Part shown: positions 10,819 to 17,683 of the stretch, piece after piece | How the letters are laid out: every line of letters starts with the position of its first letter | Position numbering within the stretch: position 1 is the first letter of the stretch | Origin: Balneola sp. EhC07 | GTDB taxonomy: Bacteria; Bacteroidota; Rhodothermia; Balneolales; Balneolaceae | NCBI RefSeq assembly: GCF_001650905.1 | Contig: NZ_LXYG01000012.1 | Coordinates: 62,001-126,000, forward strand | Direction: 5' to 3' | Length of the DNA: 64,000 nucleotides | Translations under genes and position numbers: made by a program | The notes under the pieces: model-generated | What the model saw: the letters and a program-made list of their open reading frames with translations, nothing else | The model's database searches: none | What the model was told of the DNA's origin: nothing

Positions 10819-11565
10819 TTGATAGAACATCAGATCAAATTGAATTCATTTTTCGAGACTACATATTTATTTTCTTCATATTCAGCTGAGCATCTGTTCT
10901 TGCTGATCGGATTCGTAGTTTTCTTTGTGTGGTTTATTCGCTCCTTGAAACAAAAACCTGAATCGATTCAGCAAAGGATACTGCTTGTTCTCGCTCTGTT
11001 TCTTACTGTTCTGCAATTGGCAAAGATTCCTCTGAATCACTATACGGGTGTTTTTGATGTTACCAAAGATATTCCTCTGCATATGTGCAATTTCCTTCCC
11101 ATGATCATGGTTTGGGTGTATGCAACTAAAAACAGAACCGTTTGGGCTACGATCTTTTTCTGGATCATATTGGGGGTTTCCCAAGCCAATTTTACTCCTT
11201 CCGTAGAATTCTCATTATTTCATTACGATGCCATTCGGTACTGGATGGTTCACCTGATGTTGGTTTTGCTGGGGCTTTATCCTGCGATCGTCTGGGGATG
11301 GGAACTGGAATTAAAAGATGTGGGAAGATCATTTATAGCTCTGAATGTGGTAGCAGGTGTGATCTATTTTTTAAATCTGATCCTGGACAGCAATTATCTG
11401 TATGTAATGGATAAACCACCGGGAACTACTTTCTTCAGTCTGCTTCCTGAATGGCCGGTCTATATTCTGGTTCTGGAAGCGATCATCATCGTTTGGTCGC
11501 TAATGGTTTGGGGAGTTTTTAGGATGGTTAAGAGCCGTGTTGTTAATAAAAAGGCTGTTATATAA
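10819..11565 (+). CDS. TIGR02206/YwaF-family integral membrane protein
   Basis: A 248-residue polytopic membrane protein with about seven hydrophobic segments. It carries the hallmarks of the YwaF/TIGR02206 family: PLHMCNFLPM after the third segment and NYLYVMDKPPGTTFFS with LPEWPVY before the last. Function of the family is unknown. The reading frame has no ATG before residue 94, so translation most likely starts at TTG 10819 (Ile-Glu-His next), preceded by ACCGGGG. Transcription is divergent from the small basic-protein gene; the 238-base gap between them holds the start regions. A repeat-rich 576-base gap follows. Confidence 0.88.
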   Translation: MIEHQIKLNSFFETTYLFSSYSAEHLFLLIGFVVFFVWFIRSLKQKPESIQQRILLVLALFLTVLQLAKIPLNHYTGVFDVTKDIPLHMCNFLPMIMVWVYATKNRTVWATIFFWIILGVSQANFTPSVEFSLFHYDAIRYWMVHLMLVLLGLYPAIVWGWELELKDVGRSFIALNVVAGVIYFLNLILDSNYLYVMDKPPGTTFFSLLPEWPVYILVLEAIIIVWSLMVWGVFRMVKSRVVNKKAVI

Positions 11566-11719
11566 CCGTTATTACGTGGATGTCCTTTTAAACCAATCCG
11601 GATCTCGGACATACTACGCGAGATGGTCAAGATTGAGGCTTGTTCTGACCCCATCTGTCTTCCCCTTGGATAAGGGGAAGGACTTTTTAATTACATCACA
11701 ATAGTATTAAAAACCCAGG

Positions 11720-11744
11720 GTCATCCTGAACTCGTTTCAGGATC
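11720..11744 (+). repeat. GTCAT-type palindromic repeat, copy 1
   Basis: A 25-bp element starting GTCAT with stem ATCCTGAAC / GTTTCAGGAT. The same element, differing by one base, is at 63616-63640, and an inverted copy with two compensating stem changes at 63727-63751. A split version lies inside the restriction enzyme gene. Confidence 0.8.
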
Positions 11745-11867
11745 TTTGTGAGGTCTGGTAGTTTAATCAGGTCTACCGGCTCTGTTTTCTAACCCACTTA
11801 CACAAACGCAGGGCTGAAGCCCTTGCTAGCTTATGAACGAGGCTTTATTCTATCCTATGTAATTAAG

Positions 11868-11891
11868 GTCATTCCTGCGGAGGCAGGAATC
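11868..11891 (+). repeat. GTCATTCCTGC palindrome
   Basis: A 24-bp GTCAT-led palindrome with stem GATTCCTGC-like arms (ATTCCTGC / GCAGGAAT) and a GGAG loop. It shares the GTCAT start and GATC-like end with the other copies but has a different stem, so it is a sister type of the same class. Confidence 0.7.
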
Positions 11892-12141
11892 TGGATCGTC
11901 ATCACAGGCATGTTTCTCTAAACCAATCCAGATCTCGGGCATACGCCGCGAGATGACCTACTTACTCCATTCACGATCCCGAGAATTCGGAAGAAGTGAT
12001 CTCCCGAATATGTTTGGAATTTAGTTTATGGAGATTGCTTCGTCGTATGCACTCCTCGCAAAGGGCATCTCAAAATTTTACAAGCATTCCTTTCTACTGA
12101 GTTTCTCTTTCGCTATAATCCGTTGATAATAAAAGGAGAAG

Positions 12142-15100
12142 ATGATCAATTTTCAGACTAAGAAGGTTCGGCAGGGTATTAATAAAGCATATCTTAAAGT
12201 AAATGTTAAGCAGGGTGACTTAAACACGTTCAAAGATGAAGCAACAACCTACCTAAACAATCTTAAGCAAGCTCAAGGCGAAAGTGAAGAGCACTTTAAA
12301 GGGTATTTAAAAGATTTTCTACAAGATGCTTTTTATTCGAATGCAGAAAAGTTAGTGAATACCAGTGACCGAATTGATCTGGCTATTTACTCTGGAAAAT
12401 CTAAATCGACTTCTGTTGATGTAATTATTGAAGCCAAGCGACCTGATAACAAATCGGAAATGATCAGTAAGGACAAGCTGAATCAAAAAGCTTTTCAGGA
12501 AGCGCTACACTACTATTTTGATGAGCGAGAAAAAGGTAACGACAGCATCAAGCAAGTAGTAATTACCAACTATACTGAGTTTTTTATCTTCGATGCGCAG
12601 GAAATAGAACGCCTCTTCTATTCTAAGAAAAAACTGGTAAAGACCTATAAGGAATGGCAAAACGACGGAAAAGTATCAGGTAAAACAGAATTCATATACG
12701 GTAAGTTTGAAGAGTTTATAAAAAACTCAGAAGGAACGCTTACTGGAATTTATGCGGACCTGAACAATTACAAAAAGCAACTTAGCACAACAGGAGATGA
12801 AGACACCGACAAAAAGTTAATTCCTCTGTATAAACTGTTTTCGCCTGAGCATCTAACTAAAAAGAGCTTTGCCAACGATAGTAACTCTCTGGATAAAGGC
12901 TTTTATAATGAGTTGCTTCATATTCTGGGATTACAAGAAGTAAAAGAGGGAAGTAAACGACTTATTCAGCGATTATCCGAAGATGATCGCAATACAGGAT
13001 CTTTAGTAGAAAATACCATTGCCACGCTGAAGTACGATCAGCATATGAATGAAGTGCGTGACGCAAAAATCCAGTATGGTGACAGCGAAGACGATCAGTT
13101 ATTTGGTGTTGCACTGGAACTGGTAATTACCTGGGTGAACCGCGTTTTATTCTTAAAGCTGTTGGAAGCGCAGTTATTAGCGTATCATAAGTTTGATGAG
13201 AAGTTTAAGTTTTTGGTGTTTGAAGGAATCATTGATGAATATGACGAACTAAACAAGCTCTTTTTCAGAGTGCTTGCGCTAAAGAACAACGACAGACCGG
13301 AATCTTTACAAAAGAGATTCGGACATATTCCTTATCTAAATTCTTCTCTTTTTGATTCTACTACGTTAGAAAAGAAGACCATCCAAATTTCGGGACTGGA
13401 TGATAAAGCGTCACTTCCCATTTATAACCGAAGCGTATTCAGAAAAAGTGCCAATCCGCCGAAAGGCTCTCTTAATACCTTAGAATATTTACTCCGTTTT
13501 TTAGATGCCTATAACTTTAGTGCAGAAAGTTCAGGCGGAATTCAGAAGGAAGACAAAGCCCTTATAAATGCTTCAGTTCTTGGATTGATCTTCGAAAAAA
13601 TTAATGGCTATAAAGACGGTTCGTTCTTTACTCCCGGATTTATAACCGAATACATGGCTCGGGAAACGCTGCGTAAGTCGGTGGTTGACAAACTGAACGA
13701 TGCTTTTGATTGGGATTGTAAGGAATTCAATGAATTACATCGTAAAGTTGAAAGTACATCGCTTGGAGAGGTAAATGCTGTTATTAACTCCATCACTATT
13801 TGTGATCCCGCCGTGGGTTCCGGTCATTTTTTGGTGAGTTGTTTAAATGAATTGCTAGCCATAAAAGCAGAATTGAAAGTGCTTTGTGATGTGGAAGGAA
13901 AGCGCATTCCATATTTGGATATTGCAGTAGAAAACGATGAACTGGCGATCGAGCACAACGGTGAACTGTTTGAATACAAAGTAAATCACGAATGGAAGAA
14001 TGAACTTGTTGAACGAAGCCACGCCGGACAAGATCGCCAACGAATTCAAAAGGCATTATTCCACGAAAAGAGATCTCTGATAGAACACTGTTTATTCGGA
14101 GTAGATATAAACCCGAATTCAGTAAAGATCTGTCGGCTTCGTTTATGGATAGAACTACTAAAGCACGCTTATTATAAAGAAGACCGTCATGCTGAACTTG
14201 ATACTGAATCGAGTTCAGCACAGGTTTCAGCATCTGTGGAGGCTTCGAAAGAAAAATATGTCCCATTCTCCGAACTCGAAGTACTCCCCAACATAGACAT
14301 TAATATAAAGCAAGGGAATTCGCTGGTAAGTCGGTTCGGGTTAGACGAAGATCTGACGGCGATATTTAAGAAAAGCGAACACTCACTAGAAGACTACAAA
14401 CAAGCGGTAAAGAATTACAGGGAAACACGTGACCGTTCTGAAAAACAGCGCCTGCAAAAACTGATCAATGATATAAAAGAAGAGTTCTCAATTGGACTTG
14501 AGCAATTACATCCTGAACGAGTTAAGTTGAAGGAATTAATTGCTAAACATCATAAACTATCAACTCAGTTTGATATGTTTGGAGATGATATTGAGGGTGA
14601 AGCAGGATCAAGAAGAGCACGAATTAAAAAAGCAGAGCAGGAGCTTGAAAAACAACAAAATATTGTAGATGAAATGGAGGCGGGCACATTTTACCGTGAA
14701 GCCTTTGAATGGCGCTTCGAATTCCCGGAAGTGTTAGATGACAAAGGAAATTACAAAGGCTTTGATGTAGTGATTGGGAATCCGCCGTACATTCGTCAGG
14801 AAGAGTTTAAGGATATTAAAACCTTTTTAGAAAGCAAATATACTACCTATGCTGGCACGGCAGATTTATTTGTCTACTTTGTAGAATTAGCTTTTCAAAA
14901 CCTGAGAAAAAAGGGTGAATTTATTTTCATCATACCTAATAAATGGATGAGAGCAGGATATGGAAAAAACCTCAGAAATTTCCTTAAAGATTATCGCATT
15001 CAATCTATTTTGGATTTTGGGGACCTGCCTGTATTTGAAGAGGCAACAACATATCCTTGCATTCTGTCTGTTTCTAAAAACGAACCAAAAGTAGAGTTTG

Positions 15101-16080
15101 AAGCCGTAAGTATTGAAATTTTGGAATTTCCAAATGGCTTAGAAGAGTATATTAAAAGTAACAAAATAGATGTTTTAGCTAATGAATTACCTGAACAAGG
15201 TTGGGCTTTAATTGATGCTCAAGAGCAGAAATTATTAATAAAATTAAGAGGAAAAGGCATTTCACTTGGTGAGTATGTAGACGGTAAAATTTTTAGAGGA
15301 GTATTAACTGGACTTAATGAAGCTTTTATAATAGACAGTGAAAAAAGAAGTGAACTTATCCAACAAGACAGGAAAAATGAGCAAATAATAAAGAAATTTT
15401 ATTCCGGGAGAGATATAAATAAATATTCAATTAATGACAGTAATAAATACTTAACATTTTTACCATGGCATTTTCCATTACATGAAGATGAAACTATAAA
15501 TGGATCTTCTGACTTAGCAGAAAAGAATTTTAAAGCGAACTATGAACCGTTATATAAGCATATAGAAGTTTATAAGAAAAAACTTCTAAAAAGAAATAAA
15601 GCTGAAACTGGAATTAGATACGAATGGTATGCACTTCAAAGATATGCATCGTCTTACTATAAAGAGTTTGAGAAGAAAAAAATTGTTTGGCCAGAAGTTA
15701 GTAAAACAAGTTATGTTGCATTAGATGAAAGTAAAGCATTCTTAAATAAAACCTGCTTTTTTATACCTATTTCTGATCTTTATTTAGTTGGTTTATTAAA
15801 TTCAAGTTTGGTTCAATTTTATCTAGATAAAACAGTCTCGAAAATGAGGGGTGGCTACTTCTTATTAAGTGAAATCTACATGGAAAAAATTCCTATCCTT
15901 AATTTTAATAGTAATAGAAGTGAATTATTTGAATCTAAAGTCACCCAAATCCTCTCCCTCAAAAAAGAAAACCCAGAAGCCGATACTTCAAAACTAGAAG
16001 CCGAGATAGACCAACTGGTTTACGAGCTGTACGGCTTAACCGAAGAAGAAATTGCTATAGTAGAGGAGAGTGTGGGGTGA
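12142..16080 (+). CDS. Type IIG restriction-modification enzyme (Eco57I-like)
   Basis: A 1312-residue single-chain enzyme combining DNA cleavage, adenine N6-methylation and target recognition. The N-terminal nuclease part shows a PD-(D/E)XK pattern: Asp79 in DRIDLA and E97-A-K99 in VIIEAKRP. Methylase motif I is DPAVGSGHF at 555-563 and the catalytic motif IV is NPPY at 880-883 in VIGNPPYIRQEEF. The C-terminal part (about 980-1260) is the TaqI-like target-recognition region, with YSGRDINKYSI. No separate methylase or specificity gene is adjacent, as expected for this class. Two oddities: a palindromic repeat is inserted in frame near residues 682-698, and GC falls from about 40% to below 33% between roughly 15070 and 15950, the recognition region, then recovers. 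The start has a strong AAAAGGAG site. A candidate toxin-antitoxin-chaperone module follows after 65 bases. Confidence 0.92.
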   Translation: MINFQTKKVRQGINKAYLKVNVKQGDLNTFKDEATTYLNNLKQAQGESEEHFKGYLKDFLQDAFYSNAEKLVNTSDRIDLAIYSGKSKSTSVDVIIEAKRPDNKSEMISKDKLNQKAFQEALHYYFDEREKGNDSIKQVVITNYTEFFIFDAQEIERLFYSKKKLVKTYKEWQNDGKVSGKTEFIYGKFEEFIKNSEGTLTGIYADLNNYKKQLSTTGDEDTDKKLIPLYKLFSPEHLTKKSFANDSNSLDKGFYNELLHILGLQEVKEGSKRLIQRLSEDDRNTGSLVENTIATLKYDQHMNEVRDAKIQYGDSEDDQLFGVALELVITWVNRVLFLKLLEAQLLAYHKFDEKFKFLVFEGIIDEYDELNKLFFRVLALKNNDRPESLQKRFGHIPYLNSSLFDSTTLEKKTIQISGLDDKASLPIYNRSVFRKSANPPKGSLNTLEYLLRFLDAYNFSAESSGGIQKEDKALINASVLGLIFEKINGYKDGSFFTPGFITEYMARETLRKSVVDKLNDAFDWDCKEFNELHRKVESTSLGEVNAVINSITICDPAVGSGHFLVSCLNELLAIKAELKVLCDVEGKRIPYLDIAVENDELAIEHNGELFEYKVNHEWKNELVERSHAGQDRQRIQKALFHEKRSLIEHCLFGVDINPNSVKICRLRLWIELLKHAYYKEDRHAELDTESSSAQVSASVEASKEKYVPFSELEVLPNIDINIKQGNSLVSRFGLDEDLTAIFKKSEHSLEDYKQAVKNYRETRDRSEKQRLQKLINDIKEEFSIGLEQLHPERVKLKELIAKHHKLSTQFDMFGDDIEGEAGSRRARIKKAEQELEKQQNIVDEMEAGTFYREAFEWRFEFPEVLDDKGNYKGFDVVIGNPPYIRQEEFKDIKTFLESKYTTYAGTADLFVYFVELAFQNLRKKGEFIFIIPNKWMRAGYGKNLRNFLKDYRIQSILDFGDLPVFEEATTYPCILSVSKNEPKVEFEAVSIEILEFPNGLEEYIKSNKIDVLANELPEQGWALIDAQEQKLLIKLRGKGISLGEYVDGKIFRGVLTGLNEAFIIDSEKRSELIQQDRKNEQIIKKFYSGRDINKYSINDSNKYLTFLPWHFPLHEDETINGSSDLAEKNFKANYEPLYKHIEVYKKKLLKRNKAETGIRYEWYALQRYASSYYKEFEKKKIVWPEVSKTSYVALDESKAFLNKTCFFIPISDLYLVGLLNSSLVQFYLDKTVSKMRGGYFLLSEIYMEKIPILNFNSNRSELFESKVTQILSLKKENPEADTSKLEAEIDQLVYELYGLTEEEIAIVEESVG
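14186..14234 (+). repeat. GTCAT-type palindrome embedded in the restriction gene
   Basis: GTCATGCTGAACTTG (14186-14200) and GGTTTCAGCATC (14223-14234) are the two halves of the same GTCAT palindrome seen in the intergenic gaps, separated by a 22-base insert that itself contains GTTCAGC (14213-14219), able to pair with GCTGAAC (14191-14197). Stem changes relative to intergenic copies are compensated on the other arm. The frame stays open and encodes RHAELDTESSSAQVSAS, a low-complexity stretch between two conserved methylase blocks (RLWIELLKHAYY and LEVLPNIDINIKQGNSL). Confidence 0.75.
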
Positions 16081-16113
16081 TGATGCGATTAAGGAACGTT
16101 ATTAATAAAATAA

Positions 16114-16131
16114 TTGTCAATTTATTGACAA
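16114..16131. promoter_or_regulatory. Inverted repeat before the toxin-antitoxin genes
   Basis: TTGTCAA (16114-16120), four bases, TTGACAA (16125-16131), 14 bases before the first gene of the candidate TAC operon. Such a dyad is where an XRE-type antitoxin would be expected to bind for autoregulation. The second half also resembles a -35 TTGACA but the spacing to the ATG is too short for that use. Confidence 0.45.
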
Positions 16132-16145
16132 ATGCACTATTTTAG

Positions 16146-16637
16146 ATGACTTTTTCGTTTAACATAGTGCCATTTTATGAAGGAAAAAGAGCAAACTTCT
16201 ATACAATTATTATCGAAGGTGAAGAATTACCTGAAGGAGATAAATTTTTGAGCAATGAAAGAGTTAATACAAACTCTCATTTTAATAAATTGAAACAAGT
16301 CTTTTTCAACTTATTGAATCGTTTTGGGGCAAGACAACAATTTTTTAAAGATGAAGGTCTTGCAGGCGACATGGTAAATGCCTTTTACGTAAGGAGAGGT
16401 AATTTAAGATGGTATTGCTTAAGATGGAGCGAGCAAATGGTAATATTTGGTAATGGTGGAGTAAAAACTGTTAGAGCAACTCAAGACGACCCATATTTAA
16501 AGAATTGTGAATACTCGTTAAGATGGATAGACAAATGCCTTACTATTGCCCTTAAAGAAGGAAAGATTTCAGTATCAGGAGATGGGAAACTTTCCGGTGA
16601 TTTGAGGTTTAACAAAGAAGATTACATTAATCTATAG
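16146..16637 (+). CDS. Candidate toxin of a toxin-antitoxin-chaperone module
   Basis: A 163-residue protein I do not recognise by family. Its C-terminal half has a RelE/HigB-like pattern: a helix (about 46-62), then FYVRRGNLRWYCLRW and a strand pair ending MVIFGNGGVKTVRA, followed by a helical stretch with basic residues. It is the first gene of a tight three-gene operon: 4 bases to an XRE-type antitoxin gene and 8 bases from that to a SecB-like gene. Toxin-first order with an HTH antitoxin is the HigBA arrangement. The N-terminal 60 residues are longer than in classical RelE toxins. Composition is AT-rich, pointing to transfer. The toxin role is inferred from context and weak fold resemblance only. 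Confidence 0.6.
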   Translation: MTFSFNIVPFYEGKRANFYTIIIEGEELPEGDKFLSNERVNTNSHFNKLKQVFFNLLNRFGARQQFFKDEGLAGDMVNAFYVRRGNLRWYCLRWSEQMVIFGNGGVKTVRATQDDPYLKNCEYSLRWIDKCLTIALKEGKISVSGDGKLSGDLRFNKEDYINL

Positions 16638-16641
16638 CGTT

Positions 16642-17115
16642 ATGGATATTAATAAAAGCAAACAAATTAGAGATAGCTTTGAAGCCCTTGAGGTTGAAGA
16701 AAGTCGATTTGTGGACAATCAAATGTTTGTTGCAGCACAAATCCAAAATGGTTTGGAAAGAAAAGGTTGGTCACAAAATAAATTATCAAGAGAATCAGGT
16801 TTGAATGAAAATGTGATTCGTCAAATAATAGCAGGCGAAGGAAATCCAACGCTAAAAACAATCTCAGCAATAGAACAGGCTTTAAATGAAGAAGTTATTG
16901 TGGCTCCGGACTTCTTTATGGAAGAGTTAGAAGAGAAAGGGGTTATTATCAGTGAATCGAACTATATGGATTTTTCATTTAGATATACTGAAGAACTATC
17001 AAGTTCTATGTTTGCGGAAGGAGCTGAGTATTCTTTTGAGTTCAATAAAAAAAATAGAGATCAAGTAGAATATATACCATCTGATAACATGCATTTATTG
17101 CCAAAAGCCAGCTAA
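16642..17115 (+). CDS. XRE-family HTH antitoxin with long C-terminal tail
   Basis: A 157-residue protein with a clear XRE/Cro helix-turn-helix at about 43-82 (WSQNKLSRESGLNENVIRQI, then GNPTLKTISAIEQAL). This is the HigA type of antitoxin DNA-binding domain, probably binding the dyad at 16114-16131. After the HTH comes a tail of about 70 residues rich in aromatic and exposed hydrophobic residues (YMDFSFRYTEEL, FAEGAEYSFEF, VEYIPSDNMHLLP). In known toxin-antitoxin-chaperone systems such a tail is the chaperone-addiction region recognised by a SecB-like protein, and a SecB-like gene follows 8 bases downstream. The first 40 residues form a helical extension. Role as antitoxin is inferred from domain and operon. 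Confidence 0.75.
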   Translation: MDINKSKQIRDSFEALEVEESRFVDNQMFVAAQIQNGLERKGWSQNKLSRESGLNENVIRQIIAGEGNPTLKTISAIEQALNEEVIVAPDFFMEELEEKGVIISESNYMDFSFRYTEELSSSMFAEGAEYSFEFNKKNRDQVEYIPSDNMHLLPKAS

Positions 17116-17123
17116 TTAGAAGA

Positions 17124-17570
17124 ATGGAAAAAAAATTAAGTTTTGGTTTAGATTCTTTCAAAGTAAAATCTTTTCGGTTTGATTCAACGGAGAAGACAAT
17201 TCGGAAGGATCGTATAAATTTTGATATTCAGTTAAATATCAAATCAAAAAAAGGCGAAAGAAAATGTACTGTGTTTTTTCGCATTGAGGCGAAGCATGGA
17301 AAGCAACAACCAATTAGCTTAGGTGTCATCGAGACAGAAACAATTTATAATCTTATTGGTGAAATACCTTACAATGAAGAAACAGATTCTATACAGTTAC
17401 CTAACGATCTAATTGTTACGTTTGTATCAATAGGATATTCAACCACAAGAGGAGCTTTATTAGTAAAAGCTCAATCCACGATACTTGCAGATGCTCCACT
17501 GCCCATTATTGATCCAGTGAAGCTTTGGGAGCATTTTAAAAATCAAAAAAGCGAAAAAAAATCAGGTTAA
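17124..17570 (+). CDS. SecB-like chaperone, third gene of the module
   Basis: A 148-residue protein that I read as SecB-fold: alternating beta strands (INFDIQLNIKS, RKCTVFFRIEA, ISLGVIETETIYNL) followed by a helix turn and the C-terminal block TTRGALLVKAQSTILADAPLPIIDP with KLWEHF. This closely mirrors the SecB end, where a SRG motif is followed by a proline-bearing loop and a NFDALF-type helix. General SecB is a tetrameric export chaperone; SecB-like proteins encoded third in TA operons (as in M. tuberculosis Rv1955-1957) instead protect the antitoxin. Operon position, small spacing and the aromatic antitoxin tail fit that use. Similarity was judged by eye. Low GC. Confidence 0.6.
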   Translation: MEKKLSFGLDSFKVKSFRFDSTEKTIRKDRINFDIQLNIKSKKGERKCTVFFRIEAKHGKQQPISLGVIETETIYNLIGEIPYNEETDSIQLPNDLIVTFVSIGYSTTRGALLVKAQSTILADAPLPIIDPVKLWEHFKNQKSEKKSG

Positions 17571-17683
17571 TTACTTGATACACACCCCCCAAACCTTCAA
17601 TAACCCATCCGGCATTTACTAAACTGATCGCGGTTTCCTGAGCTTTTTCGCTGGATTAAAAAAGACGGGCGACTCTACTAAAA

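Follow-up and report, generated by a model that had tools for sequence, protein, structure and literature searches.

A predicted toxin-antitoxin-chaperone operon with a divergent HigB-like toxin and a SecB-like chaperone in Balneola sp. EhC07

Introduction

Between positions 16114 and 17570 of a 64,000-nucleotide stretch of the Balneola sp. EhC07 genome (hereafter the window), three short genes follow one another behind an inverted repeat. The initial annotation took them for a candidate toxin-antitoxin-chaperone (TAC) operon whose toxin belonged to no familiar family, and which might represent a new TAC branch. We asked what these genes, called T, A and C here, are likely to encode, how they relate to TAC systems already described, and what the operon may do for its host. 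TAC systems as such, those with a HigB-type toxin and those triggered by phage are already known, and the three genes are already catalogued in PADLOC. Within the literature searched, and allowing that the first point may have been stated earlier, two things are new: the recognition of PADLOC entry PDC-M64 as a TAC branch whose toxin and chaperone lie outside the Pfam families, and the exchange of chaperone classes together with an operator common across the phylum.

Three adjacent genes conserved in Bacteroidota

All three genes lie on the plus strand. The toxin gene T (16146-16637, 163 aa) opens with an ATG directly 3' of an in-frame TAG, and is followed by A (16642-17115, 157 aa), a HigA-type XRE antitoxin gene by its HTH_3 and PADLOC matches, and by C (17124-17570, 148 aa), a SecB-like chaperone gene by fold, profile and PADLOC matches. 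The gaps are 4 bases (CGTT) between T and A and 8 bases (TTAGAAGA) between A and C, and G+C is 33% in each gene versus 38% window-wide. The tight packing, the AT-richness and the TAC-like order of adjacent toxin, antitoxin and SecB-like chaperone on one strand, all reported initially, are thus as described.

T, A and C co-recur throughout Bacteroidota. T was found in 29/296 sampled Bacteroidota genomes with a single-sequence query and in 60/394 with a profile query, and C in 22/296; its nearest named relatives place T among Balneola and Fodinibius records. Most genomes sharing both T and C keep the order T-A-C, in dozens of loci with one orientation. For close pairs, dN/dS was 0.09-0.27 for T, A and C, which indicates purifying selection. 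Because the genes recur jointly across Bacteroidota and are constrained in this way, we regard them as real genes.

The toxin

The window protein T had no Pfam match up to E 10 and no NCBIfam match. None of 21 T relatives matched a Pfam toxin family, and hmmsearch with the T family returned nothing relevant. Relatives of T were found neither among INPHARED phages nor, in a single-protein scan, in IMG/VR. An AF2 model of T (pLDDT 73, moderate, with residues 62-80 poorly modelled) had Mycobacterium tuberculosis HigB1 (7nbu) as its best VIA match, with Z 6.5, rmsd 4.4 and 116 aligned residues, tied with Streptococcus pneumoniae HigB (6af4, Z 6.4); the Z scores of 6.3-6.5 obtained for the T and C models are too low to be conclusive by themselves. 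Nearly all of the 48 rows in the VIA listing were RelE, HigB or ParE proteins. When a profile of 48 T sequences was compared with Gp49/HigB proteins of the same order, hhalign gave a probability of 78.6, an E value of 1.7e-5 and a score of 36.5, while 40 column-shuffled decoys reached a maximum score of 17.9.

Two residues of the likely active site are invariant in 48/48 relatives. Arg88 (codon 16407-16409, plus strand) aligns with the HigB arginine (R77 of M. tuberculosis HigB1, R61 of RelE), and Lys107 (codon 16464-16466, plus strand) aligns with HigB1 K95 (RelE R81); both R77 and K95 of HigB1 are required for toxicity (PMC9098466). Fold and profile together point to T as a divergent HigB/Gp49-like toxin of the RelE fold, and the initial supposition of a RelE/HigB-like protein is borne out by computation. 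As T has no Pfam match over the cut-off, we call it HigB-like only and do not count it as a member of Pfam Gp49 or HigB_toxin.

Two further parts of the initial description needed adjustment. A long N-terminal extension had been proposed, and an extension does exist; it comprises only some 14-17 residues (about one extra strand) beyond the HigB core, and the remaining surplus is mainly C-terminal. T had also been said to match no familiar family, which is so for Pfam and NCBIfam models but not for PADLOC, where the PDC-M64B model matches with E 2.8e-34. HEPN, MqsR and HicA identities for T were dropped, since the fold and profile matches are to RelE/HigB. A start at Met56 was considered, as many relatives have no earlier ATG, and is disfavoured by the conserved N-terminus and an in-place GTG.

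The chaperone

The window protein C likewise had no match in Pfam, including SecB (PF02556), or in NCBIfam, and none by phmmer against the PDB. With 20 C relatives, a single weak match to Pfam SecB was obtained (E 0.053), and E. coli-type SecB at E 0.25 was the sole relevant match of a C-family hmmsearch. A single-protein scan of IMG/VR found no C relatives. Pfam SecB itself was not found in the window's own genome and was detected in just 6/247 sampled Bacteroidota genomes.

The AF2 model of C (pLDDT 68, moderate; residues 109-131 poorly modelled) has four long strands followed by a C-terminal helix. Its top Foldseek matches were SecB, at probability 1.00, and its best VIA match was the M. 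tuberculosis TAC chaperone Rv1957 (5mtw; Z 6.3, in the range qualified above, rmsd 3.2, 99 aligned residues), tied with SecB. We then used a profile built from the Pfam-type SecBs of other toxin-antitoxin loci to search 3328 ORFs from all loci. It recruited the C family (E 3.6e-7 for the nearest relative of the window locus, L049, and 0.0014 for the window C), and every match at E < 0.01 was a SecB or a C-family member. The profile-profile comparison of C with SecB by hhalign gave a probability of 94.7 and an E value of 5.8e-8. Homology and modelled fold thus agree in predicting that C is a SecB-type chaperone homologue, as had been suggested initially; like the assignment of T, this is a computational result.

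The antitoxin tail

In A, Pfam HTH_3 matches residues 38-83 (E 2.7e-9). Behind it lies a putative chaperone-addiction (ChAD) tail, residues 83-157 (16888-17112, plus strand), which is 75 aa long, contains 14.7% F/W/Y and ends in PKAS; the XRE antitoxin with an aromatic-rich tail of roughly 70 residues was therefore described correctly. Across the family, a longer aromatic tail goes with the presence of a chaperone. The median post-HTH tail was 56 residues where a chaperone was present (n=36) versus 25.5 where it was not (n=12; Mann-Whitney p 2e-4, indicative only, as the p-values ignore the kinship of the sequences), and its aromatic content was 10.3% versus 4.6%. The last two antitoxin residues were small or aliphatic (AA, AS, AG, VG etc.) in 23/30 distinct chaperone-linked ends versus 66/322 background ORFs, for a motif chosen post hoc. 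Such ends can act as ClpX signals: CmdA ends in LAA (PMC11618068) and HigA1 in VA (PMC8165232). The window A ends in PKAS rather than the classical LAA, and ClpX is present in the window genome.

In two Chlorobiaceae copies (L123, L127), the toxin and HTH are kept and a single deletion apparently took the antitoxin tail and most of the chaperone; in L123, a remnant of the C-terminal chaperone motif (ISTTKGIFLQKVPG) is still readable.

A candidate operator

The dyad noticed ahead of the operon, TTGTCAATTTATTGACAA, lies at 16114-16131, 5' of T, and its inverted-repeat score was equalled or exceeded in 2.5% of shuffles. Related elements are widespread. ACTTATAAGT occurs exactly in 27/42 distinct loci, either overlapping the toxin start or no more than 95 bases upstream of it, compared with 0.05% of shuffles; with up to one mismatch, it occurs in 34/42 distinct loci versus 1.4% of shuffles. 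TGTCAAnnnnTTGACA is found exactly at -31 in two loci, the window and L002 (L049), its nearest relative, and in degenerate form in L003. These three loci combine an altered operator with different recognition-helix sequences in A, and this joint change supports binding of the dyad by A. From these sequence patterns, TTGTCAATTTATTGACAA is probably autoregulatory.

In Chlorobiaceae toxin genes (e.g. L004, L006-L010, L013), the GTG start comes directly after an in-frame TAA and falls within the operator ACTTATAAGTG; this position suggests that translation starts there are leaderless or occluded by the repressor.

Genomic setting and mobility

The operon belongs to an accessory insert of 6.1 kb (11548-17677) beside tRNA-Arg. 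The insert also holds a type IIG restriction-modification gene of the Eco57I family (12142-16080, plus strand; PADLOC REase_MTase_IIG, E 2.9e-277; Pfam Eco57I, TaqI_C, DUF7149 and DUF7814), which is not a part of the TAC. Three sister genomes, 91-95% identical in the right flank, have 24, 29 or 352 bp at the insert site, and in G038 the insert is replaced by an apparent Mrr-like restriction gene, assigned by eye (hotspot loci L171-L174). T was found in 2/8 genomes of the genus, a patchy, mobile distribution. On the opposite side of the tRNA-Arg, G054 has a sulfotransferase-like insert (gene call by eye).

Defence genes are found beside T-A-C in several relatives, given here as a listing of cases rather than as an enrichment figure: PglZ and BrxL upstream (L103), BrxC adjoining (L106), a type I restriction enzyme (L094), IetS (L112), PDC-S37 (L111) and a type IIG gene (L049). 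A T-A-C copy at L092:3992-5334 is located on a 62-kb Bacteroides thetaiotaomicron plasmid (NZ_CP103284.1), where the annotation lists T and C as hypothetical proteins; the plasmid also carries a phage antirepressor gene, so it is possibly a phage-plasmid.

Relation to PDC-M64 and known TAC systems

All three window proteins match PADLOC models of PDC-M64: T matches PDC-M64B (the match given above), A matches PDC-M64C (1.1e-12) and PDC-M64B (6.6e-12), and C matches PDC-M64C (1.8e-10). The BREX-adjacent relatives (L103 and L106) match most strongly, at 5e-61 and 4e-57, the window copy being divergent within the group. PDC-M64 is a numbered phage defence candidate of PADLOC-DB, and we found no mention of it and no described mechanism in the literature searched; a 2024 preprint of Payne et al. 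is cited for PDC systems in PMC13356809.

Among described systems, M. tuberculosis HigB1-HigA1-SecB(TA) (Rv1955-Rv1956-Rv1957) has the same order of toxin, antitoxin and chaperone, and of all solved structures its toxin and chaperone match T and C best. Its HTH antitoxin has a C-terminal, aromatic-bearing tail as A does, and the equivalents of HigB1 R77 and K95 are the invariant residues of T. Unlike the M. tuberculosis proteins, T and C have no Pfam-level sequence match. T exceeds HigB1 by about 14-17 N-terminal and about 25 C-terminal residues, its Q113 lies three residues farther from the lysine than HigB1 Q98 does, and the tail is 75 aa in the window A versus about 45 in HigA1. HigBAC of E. 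coli C496 combines a HigB-type toxin, a HigA-type antitoxin and a SecB-like chaperone in anti-phage abortive infection, and its HigB is activated by the lambda major tail protein (PMC11980606); the likeness to the window operon is one of described composition, and T falls outside Pfam Gp49 and HigB_toxin. CmdTAC, which is PD-T4-9 and whose CmdT is an mRNA ADP-ribosyltransferase (PMC11618068), has a SecB-like chaperone too. T-family relatives carry a PD-T4-9_C chaperone, and the small residues that end CmdA resemble those of the chaperone-linked antitoxins of the T-A-C family, whereas T has the RelE fold and A an XRE-type HTH.

The proposal of a new TAC branch is therefore to be narrowed. T and C do lie outside Pfam and NCBIfam, but the genes are already catalogued, and given the PDC-M64 entry and the known HigB-type TACs, they form a divergent HigBAC-like branch rather than a new toxin class.

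Proposed mechanism and alternative explanations

That the locus is a TAC operon of some kind is highly probable. Our overall explanation, to which we assign a probability of roughly 0.85, is a HigBAC-type TAC operon with a divergent toxin and chaperone, working as follows. The evidence above covers the gene set and its homologies, the link between tail and chaperone, the small-residue end, the operator, and the operon's mobility and defence neighbours; to this the explanation adds toxicity, mRNA cleavage, chaperone dependence, ClpXP and a phage trigger by analogy with HigBAC, CmdTAC and the M. tuberculosis TAC. T would cleave mRNA in a ribosome-dependent manner, acting as a HigB-like endonuclease whose active site includes R88 and K107; fold and residues suggest this role. 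A would bind and block T and, via its HTH, repress the operon at the TTGTCAA-TTGACAA dyad. The long aromatic tail of A would be poorly folded and bear a C-terminal degradation signal; C would bind this tail, aid the folding of A and shield it from ClpXP. CmdTAC and HigBAC suggest that a freshly synthesised phage structural protein is the likeliest agent to titrate C off; A would then be degraded and T released, and mRNA cleavage and a stop in translation would abort the infection.

The phage-related part of this mechanism deserves less confidence than its molecular core, and we consider an anti-phage role likely, though by no means assured. The same molecular parts would equally serve an ordinary stress-responsive or addiction module, with a chaperone that responds to proteins that are misfolded or bound for export, a role that has been put forward for the M. 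tuberculosis TAC. The window's own genome has no Pfam SecB, so C could meet general chaperone clients, and some relatives lie outside a recognised defence setting, such as L110 amid heavy-metal-type genes (by eye). Against this, the distribution is patchy and mobile, with T in 2/8 genomes of the genus and the operon at a tRNA-Arg hotspot, the neighbours include BREX and other defence genes, and CmdTAC and HigBAC set a precedent; we judge a role apart from phage defence to be rather unlikely, if clearly the most serious competitor.

The part given to C could also be mistaken. In some three-gene toxin-antitoxin systems the third gene is used otherwise, and C might be an accessory toxin enhancer, a targeting factor or a second antitoxin instead of the chaperone of A's tail. 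With the SecB homology of C, and with tail length and end chemistry both tracking chaperone presence, this seems improbable. Least credible of all is a decaying or inactive cluster, or a chance adjacency: some Chlorobiaceae copies are indeed broken, the tail and most of C being deleted in the two loci described above, but gene order is kept in dozens of loci, dN/dS is low and the window copy has intact frames and conserved catalytic residues.

Exchange of partners between toxin-antitoxin pairs and chaperones

The combinations in which the three genes occur support the assignment to the TAC type. The same T and A are followed in L110, L111 and L112 by a third-position protein over the Pfam SecB cut-off, and profile matches identify the third genes of L099 and L108 as SecB. 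Those of L018, L020, L024, L025 and L108 are SecBs of another class than C, and those of L110 and L099 match PADLOC PD-T4-9_C, the CmdTAC chaperone. Conversely, in L116 and L117 the two genes ahead of the C-family chaperone encode a Pfam HigB_toxin (PF09907) and an HTH antitoxin. CmdC-type SecBs accompany the T-A pair and Pfam HigB toxins accompany the C family, so the locus belongs to a TAC branch, and T, A and C swap partners within the known TAC repertoire. T and A were also found at 12 loci where no chaperone was detected, so the T-A pair does not depend on C in every case.

The two loci with a HigB_toxin, both on the minus strand, share a long-tailed HTH antitoxin and a C-class chaperone and differ in their neighbours. 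An AbiEii-like AAA gene adjoins L116:5971-7313, and a GmrSD restriction gene adjoins L117:6016-7381.

A broader and distinctly tentative idea, which we think may well prove wrong, is a Bacteroidota-wide TAC immunity branch in which one T-A pair is swapped between two SecB-like chaperone classes. The two classes would stand in for one another in sensing phage structural proteins, and the module, carried within BREX and restriction loci, would be a backup triggered once DNA-targeting defence has failed. The present assignment gives PDC-M64, listed by number only, a testable mechanism, that of a chaperone-addicted HigB-like toxin. It adds to the TAC systems a Bacteroidota branch whose toxin and chaperone had gone unrecognised, in a phylum where Pfam SecB is scarce, and it offers natural variants for studying how chaperones become infection sensors: the same toxin with different chaperone classes, the same chaperone class with different toxins, and loci from which tail and chaperone were lost jointly.

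Two loci show further architectures. At L108:5896-7400 (minus strand), the antitoxin seems to hold two tandem HTH-like repeats before its tail, with a SecB-like gene next to it. At L135:1462-2670 (minus strand), a HEPN-domain protein (PF05168), a 128-aa protein ending in ALAA and a Pfam SecB/PD-T4-9_C chaperone form what looks, from sequence, like a TAC unit with a HEPN toxin.
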